Assembly (NCBI GenBank): GCA_040757115.1
Contig: JBFLYA010000207.1
Location: 1 to 6,654, forward strand
Origin: a bacterium
GTDB taxonomy: Bacteria > UBA9089 > CG2-30-40-21 > SBAY01
Reading direction: 5' to 3'
Length of the DNA stretch: 6,654 nucleotides
Shown: positions 1 to 6,654 of the stretch, in pieces
Numbering within the stretch: the stretch's first letter is position 1
Layout of the letters: every line of letters starts with the position of its first letter
Notes under the pieces: generated by a model
The model's input: the letters and a program-made list of their open reading frames with translations, nothing else
Told to the model about the DNA's origin: nothing
The model's database searches: none
Made by a program: the position numbers and the translations under genes

Positions 1-400
1 TAATAATCATGAAATCTCTCAGGATGGCGGTAACCCCATCTGGTCACCCAGAGGCGACTTGATTGCCTTTGTCTGCAAAGGCTGGATATATACCATGAAA
101 CCAGATGGAAGCGAGAGGAGGAAGGTGATTGATGGAAATTATATAGGTGATTGGATACCAGATGGAAAAGCATTTACAGCATCTATATCAGGTGGTACTC
201 ATATAGTTGACTTAAATGGGAATGTTGTTAAATATACTGGATTATGTGGACAGTGGTCTCCTGATGGTAAAATGATACTTTGTGGATTTGATGTTTATGA
301 TTCTATTGATGGTAAAAAGATAGGAGAGCCATTATCAGTAGGAATTCCAAAATCTACAAGCAAATATTTCGTCTATAAAAGACCAAATAATATTTGGTAA
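1..400 (+). CDS. TolB/PD40-like beta-propeller protein, copy 1 (5' end outside window)
   Basis: This is the C-terminal part (133 codons, in frame from base 2) of a propeller protein. The first 127 bases are identical to 2269-2395 of copy 2, so the reading frame certainly continues upstream of the window and the apparent TTG start at 59 is not real. Visible PD40-type motifs are IWSPRGDLIAF, IYTMKPDGSERRKV, DWIPDGK and QWSPDGKMIL, the W-[ST/I]-P-D-G signature of TolB-like blades. The protein ends in FVYKRPNNIW, a tail shared by all three copies. Downstream of base 127 it diverges from copies 2 and 3. The hydrolase gene follows after 15 nt, with its ribosome-binding site starting on the last base of this stop codon, so the two are likely one operon. 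By analogy with copies 2 and 3 the missing N-terminus should hold membrane segments. Role unknown; PD40 propellers commonly mediate protein or ligand binding. Confidence 0.85.
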   Translation, partial: NNHEISQDGGNPIWSPRGDLIAFVCKGWIYTMKPDGSERRKVIDGNYIGDWIPDGKAFTASISGGTHIVDLNGNVVKYTGLCGQWSPDGKMILCGFDVYDSIDGKKIGEPLSVGIPKSTSKYFVYKRPNNIW

Positions 401-407
401 AGGAGGG
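400..407 (+). promoter_or_regulatory. Shine-Dalgarno site of hydrolase copy 1, touching the upstream stop
   Basis: AAGGAGGG begins on the last base of the propeller stop codon and lies 8 nt before the ATG at 416. The near-perfect match and the overlap suggest translational coupling of the two genes. Confidence 0.75.
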
Positions 408-415
408 TAAAAGTC

Positions 416-1474
416 ATGAAAAAAATTGCTATTTGTTTGGTAATGTTATGTATATTCAGCAATGAAGTAAGAGCAGAAGAAATTAATTGGGGGAGTTGCA
501 CCACTTATGCACCAATGCCTGTATTGTTCATTCATGGCATTAACGCTAATGCAACCACTTGGGATACAGCTACTAAAGAACTGGAGAAATATTTTGGATA
601 TAAATGGATGCGGTACGACGGAAAATATATAACTCCTGACCCTCATTTTTACCCTGTTACTTACGATGAAAAGAACCCCAACGCCCCGCAGAACAAGGTC
701 GTGAAGCATTATTTAGAGGCGTTTGATTATGGTGGGGAGGATGCGGGTAAGAGTTTTAACCATCTTGATACATATAGTGATGTTTTAAAAAGACTCATTG
801 AAGGAGATGATAAATCACCTGGTATATTAAAATCTTACTATGGCGATAACTATAATCCTACTACTGACAAACTCATTATCGTTGCTCATTCTCAAGGAGG
901 ACTAATTGCCAGACATTATATTCAAGAAAAGGATGGCTGGAAACATGTAAAGCGATTGATTACTATTGGAACTGCTCATACTGGAAGTTGGCTAGCAGAT
1001 AAATTGATAAGAAGGACACGCGAGGTGCCTGAATCTGAATTTATATGGATACTTCAAGAAATGGCTATTCGTGGCCTGGCAAAGATATTAAAGGTAGAGA
1101 AGATAGAAGATATAGAAAAAGGTGCAATACAAGACCAACAAACAGAGTTGTATCAGTCTCCCATATCTATACTTGGGCATGCATATAATACTTTCCTTTG
1201 GCATCTTAACAATGGTTCAGGATTACGAAATTTACAGGATAATGTGGAAGTTGTATGCATAGTAGGGAAAATTGGGAAATTATTTTATAAAGATAGTGAT
1301 GCAATAGTTAGTGGAAATAGTCAAAGAGGAGAAAGTGAAATTCTTCCTGTAAAATACTTTGAGCCAATCTCTATAATTGATATAAAAGATGGTTTAAAAG
1401 GAATGCATACTAATCGCTCCTACGGAGCTGAATTCTTTAAGGATTATCATAGTCTACAAATATATCACTCCTAA
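416..1474 (+). CDS. Secreted alpha/beta-hydrolase (lipase/PGAP1-like), copy 1, C-terminally truncated
   Basis: This is a 352-aa predicted exported esterase or lipase. The N-terminus is a Sec signal peptide: MKK, a hydrophobic core, and a likely cleavage after VRA (residue 20). There is no lipobox, so it is probably released. FIHGIN (38-43) is the HG oxyanion motif of lipases. AHSQGG (157-162) is the nucleophile elbow with Ser159. GTAHTGS (185-191) resembles the TPHxGS motif. SDAIVSGNSQ (294-303) fits the acid loop with Asp295, and His331 in GMH is the best candidate for the catalytic His. The triad is inferred from family patterns. Residues from about 334 to the end are encoded by a REP-like repeat, and the stop lies inside a repeat hairpin. 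Copy 3 instead continues for at least 400 residues. The truncation falls just after the His codon, so a minimal catalytic domain may survive. The substrate (lipid, ester or other) cannot be told. Confidence 0.85.
   Translation: MKKIAICLVMLCIFSNEVRAEEINWGSCTTYAPMPVLFIHGINANATTWDTATKELEKYFGYKWMRYDGKYITPDPHFYPVTYDEKNPNAPQNKVVKHYLEAFDYGGEDAGKSFNHLDTYSDVLKRLIEGDDKSPGILKSYYGDNYNPTTDKLIIVAHSQGGLIARHYIQEKDGWKHVKRLITIGTAHTGSWLADKLIRRTREVPESEFIWILQEMAIRGLAKILKVEKIEDIEKGAIQDQQTELYQSPISILGHAYNTFLWHLNNGSGLRNLQDNVEVVCIVGKIGKLFYKDSDAIVSGNSQRGESEILPVKYFEPISIIDIKDGLKGMHTNRSYGAEFFKDYHSLQIYHS
710..1402 (+). repeat. Near-identical hydrolase block, copy in cassette 1
   Basis: These 693 bp match 4739-5431 with a single difference seen by eye (G at 745, A at 4774). 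Sequence on both sides of the block differs strongly between the two genes. Such sharp edges suggest recent gene conversion or unequal recombination. The part from 677 to 976 also matches copy 2 (2953-3252). Confidence 0.85.
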
Positions 1475-1572
1475 CGGAGTTTAGAAAATATATTCAGCCC
1501 TGTAAGGGCGAGATGTTTATAGCTTTATCGTCTCAACATCAAATTAGCTCCATAGGAGCGATATGTTTATTG
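1415..1572. repeat. Cluster of four REP-like palindromic units
   Basis: Four short hairpins follow each other. They are GCTCC/GGAGC (1416-1428), ACTCC/GGAGT (1467-1480), GCCCT/AGGGC (1497-1509) and GCTCC/GGAGC (1547-1559), with 3-4 nt loops. The last two carry the same 3' flank, GCGAKATGTTTAT, on the plus strand. The second has the matching flank on the minus strand, and the first also appears inverted, so the order is minus, minus, plus, plus. Stem changes are compensatory between units. This is the organisation of REP/BIME-type elements, which in other bacteria are spread by RAYT transposases; none is in this window. The first unit abuts the truncated hydrolase coding sequence and supplies its last codons. 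The cluster fills most of the gap up to the next propeller gene. Confidence 0.75.
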
Positions 1573-1624
1573 AGAAAGTTATAAATATTTTCGTGCAAAA
1601 GTTTGTTGTCATGAGGTAGGTATG

Positions 1625-2677
1625 ATGATAAGGGTAATAGAAAACTTATGTATTTTAGTTTTGCTTATTCTTTTAGTAGTAATTATCTTCAAGAAGAAGG
1701 CGATAAAAATAATCATTATCAGTGGGATAATCATAGGAGCAATAATAGGTGGTTGTAAATGGTTAGAATATAAGTTTGGTGCCAGAGAGAGTGATAGGAT
1801 TTCTTATTGTGCACCGTGTTGGGGACCAAACAACAAGATATTTTTTATTAAACATGTAATGTATGGAAATTATTCTCCATTGCTTGGGTCGATAGGATAT
1901 TACTATAAGAAGAGTGAGATTTATCTTTGTTCTATGAATGCAGATGGGACAGATAAGAAAGAGATTGTAATGCTTGAGGATACAAGCAAGAAACCTGATT
2001 TTATTCCTGTGCCTGGGGATACAAGCAAAAAAGCTGATTTAATATTTCCTCGCTATCTTGATTATTGCTCAAAGAATGGTTTAATTCTCATGTCAGGAGG
2101 AGATATTCCCAGTGGTGGCTGGACTAATGGAATATGGATTATTACACCAGATGGAAGTAATCTGACAAAGGTATCAAATATAGGGATGCACGCCTCCTGG
2201 TCACCCAATGGAAAAAGGATGGTGTATGACGGAGAGAAAGGGATTTGGGTGATGAATATAGATGGAACTAATAATCATGAAATCTCTCAGGATGGCGGTA
2301 ACCCCATCTGGTCACCCAGAGGCGACTTGATTGCCTTTGTCTGCAAAGGCTGGATATATACCATGAAACCAGATGGAAGCGAGAGGAGGAAGGTGTGTGA
2401 TAATTATCTAGGCGATTGGTCTCCTGATGGAACAATGCTTATGACAGCGTCACCACGAGGTATTATCGACTTAAATGGTAAGAGTGTTAGAGAATTCCCC
2501 GTAGAAGAATCTACCAATGGAAAGTGGTCACCTGATGGAAAAATGTTTCTGGGGAAAAGGGACTTTATTTTATACGATAGTGTGACTGGTAAAAAGATAG
2601 GGTATCCATTATCAGTAGGGGTATTAAGATCTGAAGGCAAATATTTCGTCTATAAAAAACCAAATAATATTTGGTAA
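1625..2677 (+). CDS. Membrane-anchored TolB/PD40-like beta-propeller protein, copy 2
   Basis: This is a 350-aa protein if started at 1625. That ATG sits 7 nt from GAGGT (1613-1617) and aligns with the copy 3 start; the adjacent ATG at 1622 is possible but only 4 nt from the site. The N-terminus has two hydrophobic segments (about 9-22 and 29-43) separated by a KKKAIK loop. The positive-inside rule would put the loop in the cytoplasm and the rest outside. The second segment ends in IGGC (Cys44), a lipobox-like sequence. PD40-type motifs follow: CWGPNNK (W66), SWSPNGKRMVY (W192), IWSPRGDLIAF (W229), DWSPDGT (W265) and KWSPDGKM (W301), the last four spaced 36-37 residues. A 13-residue tandem repeat (DTSKKxD...) lies at 119-144. 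The protein ends FVYKKPNNIW. It is a likely extracytoplasmic binding or scaffold protein paired with the hydrolase that starts 14 nt downstream. Function unknown. Confidence 0.88.
   Translation: MIRVIENLCILVLLILLVVIIFKKKAIKIIIISGIIIGAIIGGCKWLEYKFGARESDRISYCAPCWGPNNKIFFIKHVMYGNYSPLLGSIGYYYKKSEIYLCSMNADGTDKKEIVMLEDTSKKPDFIPVPGDTSKKADLIFPRYLDYCSKNGLILMSGGDIPSGGWTNGIWIITPDGSNLTKVSNIGMHASWSPNGKRMVYDGEKGIWVMNIDGTNNHEISQDGGNPIWSPRGDLIAFVCKGWIYTMKPDGSERRKVCDNYLGDWSPDGTMLMTASPRGIIDLNGKSVREFPVEESTNGKWSPDGKMFLGKRDFILYDSVTGKKIGYPLSVGVLRSEGKYFVYKKPNNIW
1647..2338 (+). repeat. Near-identical propeller block, copy in cassette 2
   Basis: These 692 bp match 3397-4088 at a constant offset of 1750 with five differences seen by eye. 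Three change the protein (A/T, D/A, M/I). The block covers the membrane segments and first blades. Identity ends sharply at 2338, after which the two genes diverge. Confidence 0.85.
1979..2056 (+). repeat. 39-bp imperfect tandem duplication inside propeller copy 2
   Basis: Two units start at 1979 and 2018, both opening with GATACAAGCAA and encoding 13 residues each (DTSKKPDFIPVPG, then DTSKKADLIFPRY). The same duplication is in copy 3 at 3729-3806, so it predates the cassette duplication. It probably extends a loop between blades. Confidence 0.7.
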
Positions 2678-2683
2678 GGAGGG
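2676..2683 (+). promoter_or_regulatory. Shine-Dalgarno site of hydrolase copy 2, overlapping the upstream stop
   Basis: AAGGAGGG uses the last two bases of the propeller TAA stop and lies 8 nt before the ATG at 2692. This decides the start: an upstream in-frame TTG at 2671 lies inside the propeller gene and lacks such a site. Confidence 0.75.
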
Positions 2684-2691
2684 TAAAAGTC

Positions 2692-3294
2692 ATGAAAAAA
2701 ATTGCTATTTGTGTGGTGATATTGTGTATATTCAGCAATAAAGTAAGAGCAGAAGAAATTAGTTGGGGGAGTTGCACCACTTATGCACCGATGCCTGTAT
2801 TATTTATCCATGGCATCAACGCTAATGCAGAAACATGGGATACTGCTACCAAAGAATTGGAGAAGTATTTTGGGTATAGATGGTTACTGTTTAATCGTTC
2901 TGATAAAAAAATAACAGAGGATGAGAAACCAGTTACTGTGGACCGAGATAATCCCAACGCCCCGCAGAACAAGGTCGTGAAGCATTATTTAGAGGCGTTT
3001 GATTATGGTGGGGAGGATGCAGGTAAGAGTTTTAACCATCTTGATACATATAGTGATGTTTTAAAAAGACTCATTGAAGGAGATGATAAATCACCTGGTA
3101 TATTAAAATCTTACTATGGCGATAACTATAATCCTACTACTGACAAACTCATTATCGTTGCTCATTCTCAAGGAGGACTAATTGCCAGACATTATATTCA
3201 AGAAAAGGATGGCTGGAAACATGTAAAGCGATTGATTACTATTGGAACTGCTTTAGGGTCATTGGATTATAGTTTAGAGGAAATTGTTTTATAG
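2692..3294 (+). CDS. Truncated secreted alpha/beta-hydrolase, copy 2 (probable pseudogene)
   Basis: This 200-aa product has the same start context and signal peptide (cleavage after VRA, residue 20) as copy 1. It retains FIHGIN and the nucleophile elbow AHSQGG with Ser159. From 2953 to 3252 it is nearly identical to copy 1 (one difference in 300 bp). After Ala187, in the middle of the GTAHTGS motif, homology stops. A 13-residue unrelated tail (LGSLDYSLEEIVL) then leads to TAG at 3292-3294. The acid and His of the presumed triad are lost, together with the rest of the fold, so it is unlikely to be an active enzyme. A palindromic repeat follows 4 nt later. The region between residues 63 and 87 differs from both other copies. 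It could be a remnant of a deletion, or a secreted decoy or binding fragment; the first is more likely. Confidence 0.75.
   Translation: MKKIAICVVILCIFSNKVRAEEISWGSCTTYAPMPVLFIHGINANAETWDTATKELEKYFGYRWLLFNRSDKKITEDEKPVTVDRDNPNAPQNKVVKHYLEAFDYGGEDAGKSFNHLDTYSDVLKRLIEGDDKSPGILKSYYGDNYNPTTDKLIIVAHSQGGLIARHYIQEKDGWKHVKRLITIGTALGSLDYSLEEIVL
2953..3252 (+). repeat. Near-identical hydrolase block, copy in cassette 2
   Basis: These 300 bp match 677-976 of copy 1 with one difference (A at 3021, G at 745). From 2986 they also match 4739-5005 of copy 3. The block ends abruptly at the truncation point of this gene. Confidence 0.85.
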
Positions 3295-3298
3295 GGTC

Positions 3299-3358
3299 GG
3301 TTTACGAACCAGCGGTTATCAGCTACCAGACAACGCATGCTAAAGCCTGCGGCTACCA
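3299..3358. repeat. Second type of palindromic (REP-like) repeat after hydrolase copy 2
   Basis: CGCATGC (3334-3340) and GCCTGCG (3345-3351) form a 7-bp stem with one mismatch around a TAAA loop, flanked by GCTACCA at 3322-3328 and 3352-3358. Just upstream, GGTT-TACG-AACC (3299-3310) and AACC-AGC-GGTT (3307-3317) are mutually exclusive small hairpins sharing one arm. The stem-TAAA-stem plus GGCTACC pattern is typical of dispersed intergenic palindromes and is unrelated in sequence to the cluster at 1415-1572. No T-tract follows, so this is not a standard terminator. Confidence 0.6.
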
Positions 3359-3362
3359 ACTT

Positions 3363-3377: not shown

Positions 3378-4418
3378 ATGAAGACAATTGAAAATATATG
3401 TATTTTAGTTTTGCTTATTCTTTTAGTAGTAATTATCTTCAAGAAGAAGGCGATAAAAATAATCATTATCAGTGGGATAATCATAGGAGCAATAATAGGT
3501 GGTTGTAAATGGTTAGAATATAAGTTTGGTGCCAGAGAGAGTGATAGGATTTCTTATTGTGCACCGTGTTGGGGACCAAACAACAAGATATTTTTTATTA
3601 AACATGTAATGTATGGAAATTATTCTCCATTGCTTGGGTCGATAGGATATTACTATAAGAAGAGTGAGATTTATCTTTGTTCTATGAATACAGATGGGAC
3701 AGATAAGAAAGAGATTGTAATGCTTGAGGATACAAGCAAGAAACCTGATTTTATTCCTGTCCCTGGGGATACAAGCAAAAAAGCTGATTTAATATTTCCT
3801 CGTTATCTTGATTATTGCTCAAAGAATGGTTTAATTCTCATGTCAGGAGGAGCTATTCCCAGTGGTGGCTGGACTAATGGAATATGGATTATTACACCAG
3901 ATGGAAGTAATCTGACAAAGGTATCAAATATAGGGATGCACGCCTCCTGGTCACCCAATGGAAAAAGGATAGTGTATGACGGAGAGAAAGGGATTTGGGT
4001 GATGAATATAGATGGAACTAATAATCATGAAATCTCTCAGGATGGCGGTAACCCCATCTGGTCACCCAGAGGCGACTTGATTGCCTTTACCTGTAAAGGC
4101 TGGATTTGGGTGATGAAACCTGATGGGAGTGAGAGGAGGATGGTACATAAAGGAATGTATCTTTTTGATTGGATACCTGATGGAAACGGAATTATTAAAG
4201 ATGGAGCACCTGGAACTGGATGGGGTATTTTTGATATAAATGGGAATGTGATAAAAAGGTTAAAATGGGGAGGATATGTTTCATCAGATGGCAAGTTAAT
4301 ATTATCTCTTGATTTTACTGTGTTTGATATTAATAAAGAGGTAGAAATAGAACCTTTCGCTGATATTAAACAAACTGAAAAACATTTTGTATATAAAAAA
4401 CCAAATAACATTTGGTAA
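3378..4418 (+). CDS. Membrane-anchored TolB/PD40-like beta-propeller protein, copy 3
   Basis: This is a 346-aa protein with the same architecture as copy 2: two hydrophobic segments around a KKKAIK loop, a lipobox-like IGGC (Cys43), the 13-residue tandem repeat, then PD40-type blades. Positions 3397-4088 are nearly identical to copy 2. After IAF (about residue 237) the sequence diverges, and the last third has its own blades (IWVMKPDGSERR, DWIPDGN, IFDINGNVIKRL, YVSSDGKLIL) before the shared FVYKKPNNIW end. Some divergent blades have lost the WSPDG signature, for example VSSDGK. The first seven codons also differ from copy 2, because the region upstream is a different repeat. The long hydrolase starts 17 nt downstream. 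The divergent C-terminal third together with the divergent N-terminus of its partner hints at matched pairs, which is inference. Confidence 0.88.
   Translation: MKTIENICILVLLILLVVIIFKKKAIKIIIISGIIIGAIIGGCKWLEYKFGARESDRISYCAPCWGPNNKIFFIKHVMYGNYSPLLGSIGYYYKKSEIYLCSMNTDGTDKKEIVMLEDTSKKPDFIPVPGDTSKKADLIFPRYLDYCSKNGLILMSGGAIPSGGWTNGIWIITPDGSNLTKVSNIGMHASWSPNGKRIVYDGEKGIWVMNIDGTNNHEISQDGGNPIWSPRGDLIAFTCKGWIWVMKPDGSERRMVHKGMYLFDWIPDGNGIIKDGAPGTGWGIFDINGNVIKRLKWGGYVSSDGKLILSLDFTVFDINKEVEIEPFADIKQTEKHFVYKKPNNIW
3397..4088 (+). repeat. Near-identical propeller block, copy in cassette 3
   Basis: This is the partner of 1647-2338 (offset 1750, five differences in 692 bp). The first 70 bases of the window also match its end (4019-4088). 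The sharp edges are compatible with gene conversion. Confidence 0.85.
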
Positions 4419-4419
4419 A

Positions 4420-4426
4420 AAGGGGG
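4420..4426 (+). promoter_or_regulatory. Shine-Dalgarno site of hydrolase copy 3
   Basis: AAGGGGG lies 9 nt before the ATG at 4436 and 1 nt after the propeller stop codon. The spacing resembles that of the other two cassettes, supporting this start. Confidence 0.65.
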
Positions 4427-4435
4427 TATATCATC

Positions 4436-6654
4436 ATGAAAAGGATAATCTTATGTATTTTATTATTGCTTTGTGGATGGAGCAGTAAAGTAAGTAGTGA
4501 GGAACTTACCTGGGGTAGTTGTACTACTTACGCACCTATGCCTGTATTGTTTATCCACGGGATTAACTCTAATTGTAAAACATGGGATACTGCTATTCCT
4601 GAGTTAGAGAAGTATTTCCAGTATAGACAGGAAAGATTTAATGAACCTAATTACTTTATTTCTCCTTTTCACCCCACTCGAAAAGGCGTCACCTACTTCA
4701 AAGATGAGAAAACCAATTACGAATCCCCCGCCAAGCTCTATTTAGAGGCGTTTGATTATGGTGGGGAGGATGCAGGTAAGAGTTTTAACCATCTTGATAC
4801 ATATAGTGATGTTTTAAAAAGACTCATTGAAGGAGATGATAAATCACCTGGTATATTAAAATCTTACTATGGCGATAACTATAATCCTACTACTGACAAA
4901 CTCATTATCGTTGCTCATTCTCAAGGAGGACTAATTGCCAGACATTATATTCAAGAAAAGGATGGCTGGAAACATGTAAAGCGATTGATTACTATTGGAA
5001 CTGCTCATACTGGAAGTTGGCTAGCAGATAAATTGATAAGAAGGACACGCGAGGTGCCTGAATCTGAATTTATATGGATACTTCAAGAAATGGCTATTCG
5101 TGGCCTGGCAAAGATATTAAAGGTAGAGAAGATAGAAGATATAGAAAAAGGTGCAATACAAGACCAACAAACAGAGTTGTATCAGTCTCCCATATCTATA
5201 CTTGGGCATGCATATAATACTTTCCTTTGGCATCTTAACAATGGTTCAGGATTACGAAATTTACAGGATAATGTGGAAGTTGTATGCATAGTAGGGAAAA
5301 TTGGGAAATTATTTTATAAAGATAGTGATGCAATAGTTAGTGGAAATAGTCAAAGAGGAGAAAGTGAAATTCTTCCTGTAAAATACTTTGAGCCAATCTC
5401 TATAATTGATATAAAAGATGGTTTAAAAGGATTTCATGGTAACCAAACTAATCAATGGGATAAAATCCGCCAATCCCTTGACGGTATTCCCGATAAAGGG
5501 ACAAAGACTTATGATACGCCTTGTGTAACACTTGGGACATCTACCGTTACGCCAGGCACTTATAGTTTATACTACCTTGGCTCAAGCGATAATTTCTATA
5601 TCACTGGCAAGATTCAGGATTACATCCCCGCTTCTTGCAGTATTACGGTAGAGATAGACTCTGAAGGCAATTATGCCTCAGATAAAGATGGGCAAATAAA
5701 AGAGCGACAGGATTTAATCCAGCCAATTGATATGAATACTGAATCTCAGGAGTTGCCACAAAAGCCGGCAAAACTCAATGCCAGCTTTAACTTCCATCCC
5801 ACTAACTTACTTACCCAGGGCAGTCACACCTTCCGGGTGACGATAAAAAACCCTGCCGGGCTTATCGGCACTTCGACGACAAAGGAAGGCTTTGACTGGA
5901 TACCGTTTATGATTGTGGGATTACCCGTAGTTGAAGTGCCGATTCAGAAGTCTGCCTCGCCGGCGACTCCTATTGCTGGCGGGTTTCAGGCGGCTTCATC
6001 CTTGTTTTTCTGGGATAATCAAAATAATTACTGGGAGCGATGGATTAATTCTAATCTACGCGTGGATTCGGATAATATCATCCGCTATAATGCCGGCACC
6101 TCTAACCTCGATAACCCTAACCTCCGACATCGTGTCTATCTGGAAAGTAGAATCTATCCGGCTGGCTCAATATATCCTAAAGCCTCTTGCGTCAATAAAA
6201 AGGAGACTCAGGCGATTACCTATACCTACGCCTCGCCACCTTTTAAACTACTCCCATTTACTAAAGCCGATAACACGGTAGTATATCGGCCTGATGTAGA
6301 TGACAACGGCACAATTACCTATCCAGAAGATATGGTTACCTTTACTAATAACGAGGTTATCTTCACCCCAAAGAAAGATGCCTTACCCAATCTTAATTTT
6401 GGACCAATCATCCCGGGTAATCCGATGTATACTTACCCACTACACATAATTATCCCACCAGAATATCAAGGTGTTTCTTCTCATGAGCTGGATATTTATA
6501 TCAATCAGGTCGGAGGATTGTATGCCTTAGAATCGCTACAGAAGGCGTTCGATTATAGTCAGGCTTTATCCAGCCAACAGGGTTTTAACCCCACGATAAA
6601 TATTGCCTGGGCACAAAATGCAGATTTAACCAATGACGGGATTACAGGGTTTGG
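4436..6654 (+). CDS. Long secreted alpha/beta-hydrolase with beta-rich C-terminal region, copy 3 (3' end outside window)
   Basis: The frame opens at ATG 4436 and stays open for 739 codons to the last bases of the window, with no stop. An N-terminal signal peptide (MKR, hydrophobic core, likely cleavage near residues 20-21) precedes WGSCTTYAPMPVLFIHGIN, a stretch shared by all copies. The hydrolase domain shows HGIN (41-44), AHSQGG with Ser162, GTAHTGS, SDAIVSGNSQ with Asp298, and His334 in GFHGNQ as the likely triad. After about residue 350 comes a long region rich in beta-strand-like segments (for example TPGTYSLYYLGSS and HTFRVTIKNPAG), suggestive of Ig-like or other surface modules, but no family is recognised. 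DVDDNGTITYPE (620-631) is a perfect EF-hand-type calcium loop. DLTNDGIT (730-737), at the window edge, resembles a dockerin-like calcium repeat. It is probably a secreted or surface enzyme, and represents the full-length form from which copies 1 and 2 were shortened. Confidence 0.85.
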   Translation, partial: MKRIILCILLLLCGWSSKVSSEELTWGSCTTYAPMPVLFIHGINSNCKTWDTAIPELEKYFQYRQERFNEPNYFISPFHPTRKGVTYFKDEKTNYESPAKLYLEAFDYGGEDAGKSFNHLDTYSDVLKRLIEGDDKSPGILKSYYGDNYNPTTDKLIIVAHSQGGLIARHYIQEKDGWKHVKRLITIGTAHTGSWLADKLIRRTREVPESEFIWILQEMAIRGLAKILKVEKIEDIEKGAIQDQQTELYQSPISILGHAYNTFLWHLNNGSGLRNLQDNVEVVCIVGKIGKLFYKDSDAIVSGNSQRGESEILPVKYFEPISIIDIKDGLKGFHGNQTNQWDKIRQSLDGIPDKGTKTYDTPCVTLGTSTVTPGTYSLYYLGSSDNFYITGKIQDYIPASCSITVEIDSEGNYASDKDGQIKERQDLIQPIDMNTESQELPQKPAKLNASFNFHPTNLLTQGSHTFRVTIKNPAGLIGTSTTKEGFDWIPFMIVGLPVVEVPIQKSASPATPIAGGFQAASSLFFWDNQNNYWERWINSNLRVDSDNIIRYNAGTSNLDNPNLRHRVYLESRIYPAGSIYPKASCVNKKETQAITYTYASPPFKLLPFTKADNTVVYRPDVDDNGTITYPEDMVTFTNNEVIFTPKKDALPNLNFGPIIPGNPMYTYPLHIIIPPEYQGVSSHELDIYINQVGGLYALESLQKAFDYSQALSSQQGFNPTINIAWAQNADLTNDGITGF
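4739..5431 (+). repeat. Near-identical hydrolase block, copy in cassette 3
   Basis: These 693 bp match 710-1402 with one difference. The sequences on both sides (about 4620-4738 and after 5440) use visibly more C-ending codons such as GCC, CCC, TAC and ATC than the block itself. This supports the block having been copied into an older gene. Confidence 0.85.
6293..6328 (+). other. EF-hand-type calcium loop coding segment in hydrolase copy 3
   Basis: The encoded 12-mer DVDDNGTITYPE has D at 1, D at 3, N at 5, G at 6, I at 8 and E at 12, matching the canonical DxDxDGxIxxxE loop. It lies in the C-terminal region of a predicted exported protein, so calcium would be extracellular. Whether flanking helices form a true EF-hand is unclear. 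Confidence 0.6.

Follow-up and report, generated by a model that had tools for sequence, protein, structure and literature searches.

A variable core across the gene junction of tandem propeller-hydrolase cassettes as a possible two-protein specificity module

Results

Gene content and organization of the cassette array

The window analyzed here is the complete contig C207 (6,654 nucleotides) of a draft genome of 4.3 Mb in 462 contigs, and it contains three cassettes (D, E, and F), each consisting of a propeller gene followed 14-17 nt downstream by a hydrolase gene (Table 1). The first-pass annotation of this DNA can be refined in that the propeller gene of cassette D lies only partly in the window, starting at base 2, and in that the hydrolases of D and E are truncated. 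The start of cassette D that is missing from C207 is probably located at the end of contig C216 (L041), which together with contig C255 (L042), likewise short, carries three further cassettes of the source genome (A, B, and C). The ends of C255 and C216 share an 8-nt overlap across which cassette B continues in frame, and on the basis of the sequence cassettes B and D are both predicted to be joined across contig ends.

The genome of a sister species (G001) contains four cassettes, and the comparison set comprised the ten cassettes of these two species (A to F of the source genome and G to J of the sister species). More distant relatives (G003, G005, and G007) carry single or few pairs, in which the order of propeller and then hydrolase is kept. 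No relative of the cassettes was found in the viral contigs that were searched, which therefore gave no link to phages, and the search of genome contigs yielded matches to three distant hydrolases of Bacteroidota only. In a draft genome of short contigs, fully identical cassettes may have been collapsed, which would hide copies with a common core.

A dispersed element of approximately 198 bp (window 1414-1611) has about 12 full or partial copies elsewhere in the genome, at 95-100% identity. Upstream of propeller D lies what reads as the 3'-end remnant of a REP-associated (Y1-type) transposase (L041 5850-6230). The last part of this putative remnant recurs upstream of propeller F (window 3252-3360), where it forms a fusion with truncated hydrolase E. 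In three genomes (L080 1612-1989, L086 1408-1842, and a remnant near L042 1800-1850), an open reading frame of the GxxExxY family separates a LolA-like tail from the propeller; the TIGR04256 profile was tested for the L080 frame, and the other two were assigned by eye.

Table 1. Features of the propeller-hydrolase cassettes in the window
Feature	Coordinates	Strand	Basis
Cassette D propeller gene, 3' part	2..400	+	Open frame; same family as E/F propellers
Left edge (LE), propeller blade 4, cassette D	38..127	+	Codon-level conservation
Variable core D: propeller blades 5-6, gene junction, hydrolase residues 1 to about 98	128..709	+	Identity runs, segment identity, maximum chi-square
Hydrolase D, 352 aa, truncated by dispersed repeat after about 1402-1414	416..1474	+	Open frame; Pfam PGAP1
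Right edge (RE), YLEAFDYGGED, cassette D	710..742	+	Sequence search
Cassette E propeller gene: N-terminal membrane segments, six PD40-like blades	1622..2677	+	Open frame; PD40 match
Left edge (LE), cassette E	2306..2395	+	Codon-level conservation
Variable core E (start 2339 if compared with F)	2396..2985	+	Identity runs, segment identity, maximum chi-square
Gene junction J, cassette E: YKKPNNIW, stop, AGGAGG ribosome-binding site, hydrolase ATG at 2692	2651..2694	+	Alignment
Hydrolase E, truncated at 3252 before catalytic Asp/His region	2692..3294	+	Open frame; alignment
Right edge (RE), cassette E	2986..3018	+	Sequence search
Cassette F propeller gene	3378..4418	+	Open frame; family comparison
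Left edge (LE), cassette F	4056..4145	+	Sequence search
Variable core F, core type that of sister-species cassette G	4089..4738	+	Segment identity, trees
Hydrolase F, long form (alpha/beta hydrolase, then C-terminal region), runs off contig	4436..6652	+	Open frame; Pfam
Right edge (RE), cassette F	4739..4771	+	Sequence search
Hydrolase middle part of scaffold, cassette F	4772..5431	+	Exact-identity run with D

Predicted properties of the propeller and hydrolase proteins

The propeller scores above the Pfam threshold for PD40 (PF07676, 33.1 bits with a cut-off of 20.9) and matches DPPIV_N weakly, below the cut-off. TolB proper was ruled out (equivalog TIGR02800, 39.3 bits with a cut-off of 343.15), and TolB and an S9 peptidase chain are among the solved structures nearest to it in sequence. 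The protein is predicted to be a TolB-like, six-bladed propeller, the blades being numbered according to our own reading of the WSPxG repeats, and an N-terminal membrane segment, signal peptide, or possible lipobox suggests that it is exported or membrane-anchored. AlphaFold2 models from alignments based on the window were of low confidence, with pLDDT values of 55 for the propeller and 34 for the hydrolase.

The hydrolase passes the Pfam PGAP1 threshold (38.4 bits with a cut-off of 24.3), the hydrolases also match the palmitoyl thioesterase family of Pfam, and a nucleophile elbow (AHSQGG or GHSQGG) is present in their alignment. These features, together with a signal peptide, point to a lipase-like and exported enzyme. 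A Peptidase_S9 domain was not among the Pfam matches of the hydrolase, and propeller and hydrolase are encoded by separate genes. The tight gene spacing and the AGGAGG sequence ahead of the hydrolase start suggest that the two proteins of a cassette are made from one transcript. The catalytic domain is incomplete in hydrolases A, B, E, and G, and therefore some of the pairs may be remnants or donors, as has been proposed for orphan CdiA-CT/CdiI modules (PMC3150448).

A LolA-like domain forms the C-terminus of the full-length cassette C hydrolase. Hydrolases A and B have internal deletions, yet they are followed by a remnant of the same LolA-like C-terminus (L042 4170-4310 and L041 1080-1196). 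The C-terminal regions of hydrolases F and C share 95% DNA identity (window 5972-6654 and L041 3890-4572), whereas their bodies share only about 53%, which makes this region a further mosaic block. Genome G007 holds two copies of the hydrolase N part (L086 2-235 and L084 905-3208; 88% amino acid identity), in one of which SG replaces HG at the presumed oxyanion position.

A divergent core between near-identical flanks

Comparison of the cassettes revealed a core of roughly 550-650 bases that covers the end of the propeller gene and the start of the hydrolase gene, encoding the last two propeller blades and the first ~100 hydrolase residues, and that differs between cassettes with otherwise very similar sequences. 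Cassettes D and E are identical from 1-127 (2269-2395 in E) and, past the core, over 681-744 (2957-3020) and 746-976 (3022-3252). Cassettes E and F are identical or nearly so until 2338 (4088 in F) and again without a mismatch over 2986-3252 (4739-5005), and the hydrolase genes of D and F agree at every position of a 657-nt stretch (746-1402 and 4775-5431). For the E/F pair, the propeller 5' part is 99% identical at the nucleotide level and 98% at the amino acid level, as compared with 50% and 34% for the propeller core, 61% and 57% for the hydrolase N part, and 100% across the 267 nt of the hydrolase middle that both possess. The cores of D and E are closer to each other, with nucleotide identities of 64% (propeller) and 81% (hydrolase N). 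These exact-identity runs and segment identities confirmed the near-identical flanks around a divergent junction core that had been described in the first-pass annotation, of which the core borders (128-676, 2339-2952 or 2985, and 4089-4738) proved right within a few bases.

The same design recurs in three scaffold groups, as the scaffolds are nearly identical within {D,E,F} and {B,C}, and less so within {G,H}, and the core differs in each such pair. Maximum-chi-square scores of the inner segments amounted to 302 for E/F, 229 for D/F, 91 for D/E, 399 for B/C, and 92 for G/H, while the best of 30 column shuffles scored 11.5-17.7; the core pattern is therefore not due to chance in any pair with similar flanks. 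That repeats in the draft genome were collapsed or wrongly chained during assembly might be suspected, since the three short contigs end inside shared repeats and the 657-nt exact repeat is longer than short reads. Such an artefact is nonetheless highly improbable, as the near-identical flanks still carry a few differences, the independently obtained sister genome has the same design, and the propeller end and hydrolase start are contiguous within each core.

Covariation and conflicting genealogies of core and scaffold

For analysis of covariation the cassettes were divided into P5 (the propeller up to blade 3), LE (blade 4, 90 nt), PC (blades 5-6), HN (hydrolase residues 22 to about 98), RE (YLEAFDYGGED, 33 nt), and HM (the remaining hydrolase domain). 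Identities in the two core segments, PC and HN, covaried with a Mantel r of 0.70-0.76 (p 0.0005 or lower; ten cassettes of two species, relatedness ignored), and those in the two scaffold segments, P5 and HM, with an r of 0.81-0.87, whereas covariation of core with scaffold was about zero (r -0.24 to 0.22). The expectation of the first-pass annotation that the two sides of the junction change together thus held for both core halves, while the associated view of divergence in place under selection did not (see below).

The flanks thus behave as one unit, which is at odds with the alternative offered by the same annotation, namely that independent conversion tracts homogenized both flanks and happened to miss the middle. 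Conversion is clearly active in the array, as the mismatch-free stretch between D and F testifies, but the middle left untouched is the same one, with almost coincident borders, in all three scaffold groups ({D,E,F}, {B,C}, and {G,H}), and because of this recurrence we consider such a coincidence very unlikely.

Phylogenetic trees of P5 and HM grouped {E,F} or {D,E,F}, {B,C}, and {G,H}, and rejected a grouping of F with G (p 1e-66 and 1e-10, respectively). In the trees of PC (supports 95/99) and HN (100/99) alike, {B,C,D,E} stood apart from {A,F,G,H,I,J}. These two trees also joined F with G of the other species (supports 90/93 and 86/88) and rejected {D,E,F} (p 1e-4 and 9e-5). Hence one core type is common to the two species, and the genealogies of core and scaffold are in conflict (AU test, p about 1e-4 or lower). 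The concordance of the core trees with each other and of the scaffold trees with each other implies that the genes recombined with their facing ends together and their outer parts together. The likeliest cause of the conflict is recombination that swapped the core as a unit, and we are confident that the junction-spanning core has been exchanged between scaffolds in this manner.

Substitution rates in core and flanks

Synonymous divergence (dS) of the core was 0.6-1.6, approaching saturation, as compared with 0-0.1 for the flanks in the window pairs and in B/C; for example, the P5 flank of E/F has a dS of 0.016. The flanks of B/C are of equal age (dS 0.098 for P5 and 0.080 for HM) and enclose a core with a dS of 1.5, which fits one duplication followed by one replacement of the core. 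The lone exception among recent pairs is HM of G/H, which is itself a mosaic (dS 0.44). The gap in synonymous divergence between core and flank is too great to be explained by rate alone, and the core therefore has a different genealogy.

Diversification in place, in which the core would mutate faster or be positively selected for change, as in antigenic variation, could account for an E/F propeller core that is so divergent between such similar flanks. However, outside the core synonymous sites are nearly unchanged, positive selection on the core was not detectable (dN/dS 0.33-0.54), and the core of F is closest to that of another species, so that this explanation, implied in the idea of a segment diverging under selection for change, had to be abandoned as scarcely credible. 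Intrinsic hypervariability of the core was ruled out by the relatives that lack such an array (G005, G007, and G003), in which divergence of the core does not exceed that of the scaffold, with amino acid identities of 53% for PC and 74% for HN versus 46% for P5 and 42-56% for HM. The core is old and exchanged rather than hypermutated. The high dS of the core relative to its flanks, combined with its dN/dS, therefore indicates exchange of a block, which linkage alone could bring about.

Conservation of the core edges at the codon level

Between different scaffolds of the source genome, positions with the same residue also kept the same codon in 84% of cases in LE and 96% in RE, as compared with 58% elsewhere (p 1.5e-4 for LE and 1e-4 for RE). 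Between the two species these values were 70% and 94% versus 57% (p 0.025 and 5e-5). The gene junction J forms a third, weaker island of codon conservation of about 50 nt (p 0.03-0.06). Conservation of this kind is what recombination tracts ending in LE and RE would leave, and selection acting on the edge DNA itself may also be behind it. LE and RE were ruled out as a general DNA element, both being confined to these cassettes.

Discussion

Linkage or contact between the two core halves

Adjacent segments co-segregate for free, and therefore co-segregation of the core halves by itself does not show contact between the two proteins. Linkage may be all that is involved: the core would move as a block through LE and RE, the longest homologous stretches between diverged cassettes, and its halves would stay together as neighbors that do not touch. 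LE and RE are the best-matching stretches between scaffolds, where homologous crossovers would fall, physical linkage accounts for most of the co-segregation, and the lack of detectable positive selection on the core agrees with this explanation as well. Moreover, partial conversion of the hydrolase start within a genome shows that the core can contain tract ends. On the other hand, junction J offers a further conserved stretch for crossovers, yet no cassette clearly splits the halves, and the covariation of the last propeller blade with the hydrolase insertion exceeds that between adjacent segments of the same protein. Taken together, we regard linkage without contact as a serious alternative, of lower probability than a core with matched halves.

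Across the gene border, the last propeller blade covaried with hydrolase residues 61-98 (the insertion) with an r of 0.66, as compared with 0.33 for the intervening hydrolase residues 1-60 versus residues 61-98 and 0.27 for the preceding propeller half versus the last blade; in column bootstraps the difference was zero or less in 2.1% (hydrolase) and 0.9% (propeller) of draws, both divisions, of the hydrolase part at residue 60 and of the propeller core into halves, having been chosen after the data were seen. None of the recent pairs (E/F, D/E, B/C, and G/H) has one core half identical and the other changed. Cassette G combines an H-like hydrolase start with a last blade and an insertion that both belong to the F type. 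In view of the post hoc split points and the ten cassettes, these patterns are suggestive of cognate contact, and a matched contact between propeller and hydrolase appears plausible, the case for and against it being about evenly balanced.

In the general alpha/beta hydrolase fold, the loop that connects helix A to the following strand faces away from the active site. With such a position, docking would be a more fitting role for the hydrolase insertion than forming a substrate pocket.

Proposed model of module exchange

The model that we propose, with about equal chances of being right or wrong, is that the core of the tandem array is a junction-spanning, two-protein specificity module with matched halves that is swapped by homologous recombination. 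The core would move between scaffolds as one module. The conserved edges LE and RE would be the places where crossovers or conversion tracts terminate, and duplication and conversion would keep the scaffolds alike. The last propeller blade would dock on the variable insertion of the hydrolase, between helix A and the YLEAFDYGG strand, and the propeller might serve as an anchor, chaperone, or restraint for its cognate hydrolase. The halves would have to match, and recombinants that separate the propeller half from the hydrolase half would be lost. The more specific proposal, that blade and insertion act as lock and key, are exchanged as one segment with the edges kept as exchange sites, and thereby generate a repertoire of cognate pairs, is put forward more tentatively, as somewhat less probable than the general model.

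Comparison with known systems

Arrays of orphan CdiA-CT/CdiI and Rhs-CT/RhsI modules contain tandem full-length and truncated copies of which the cognate pairs bind, and their variable module is bounded by a conserved motif through which exchange has been proposed (PMC3150448). The present array resembles them in having a variable module that spans two genes, conserved borders, and a tandem arrangement with truncated copies. The CDI and Rhs modules, however, consist of a toxin C-terminus and the entire immunity gene, whereas here only the propeller end and the hydrolase start are involved and the hydrolase body belongs to the scaffold. No Pfam match to two-partner secretion, Rhs, or known toxin domains was found in the full-length protein of cassette C or in that of cassette F as far as the contig reaches, and a PADLOC search for defense systems gave a single weak match (DUF626_VIII, 16.9 bits). 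The analogy is thus one of architecture.

In meningococcal tpsA, domains at the 3' end of a gene for a secreted protein are reported to be exchanged, and some family members to inhibit related bacteria (PMC3848433). The likeness lies in the exchanged 3' end of a secreted-protein gene; the proteins are different ones, and the exchange is described for the 3' end of one gene and not for a junction of two. Prolyl oligopeptidases of the S9 family (DPPIV type) also have a beta-propeller that works with an alpha/beta hydrolase, but these are parts of one polypeptide, whereas the cassettes encode them in two genes, with a hydrolase of the PGAP1/palmitoyl thioesterase type. With TolB the propeller shares, as judged from its sequence, export and six blades, while it differs in its score (39 bits versus the equivalog cut-off of 343), its hydrolase partner, and its occurrence in arrays. 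The literature searched for propeller-lipase immunity pairs or junction-spanning exchange held nothing closer than CDI/Rhs and TpsA.

To our knowledge, most known exchange modules that extend across a gene border belong to toxin-immunity pairs, in which the second gene is carried whole. In the cassettes described here only the facing ends of two neighboring genes travel, and both outer parts are scaffold. If these ends indeed touch, the array would represent a naturally occurring collection of matched interface pairs that could also be mismatched, and from which protein-protein specificity could be read.
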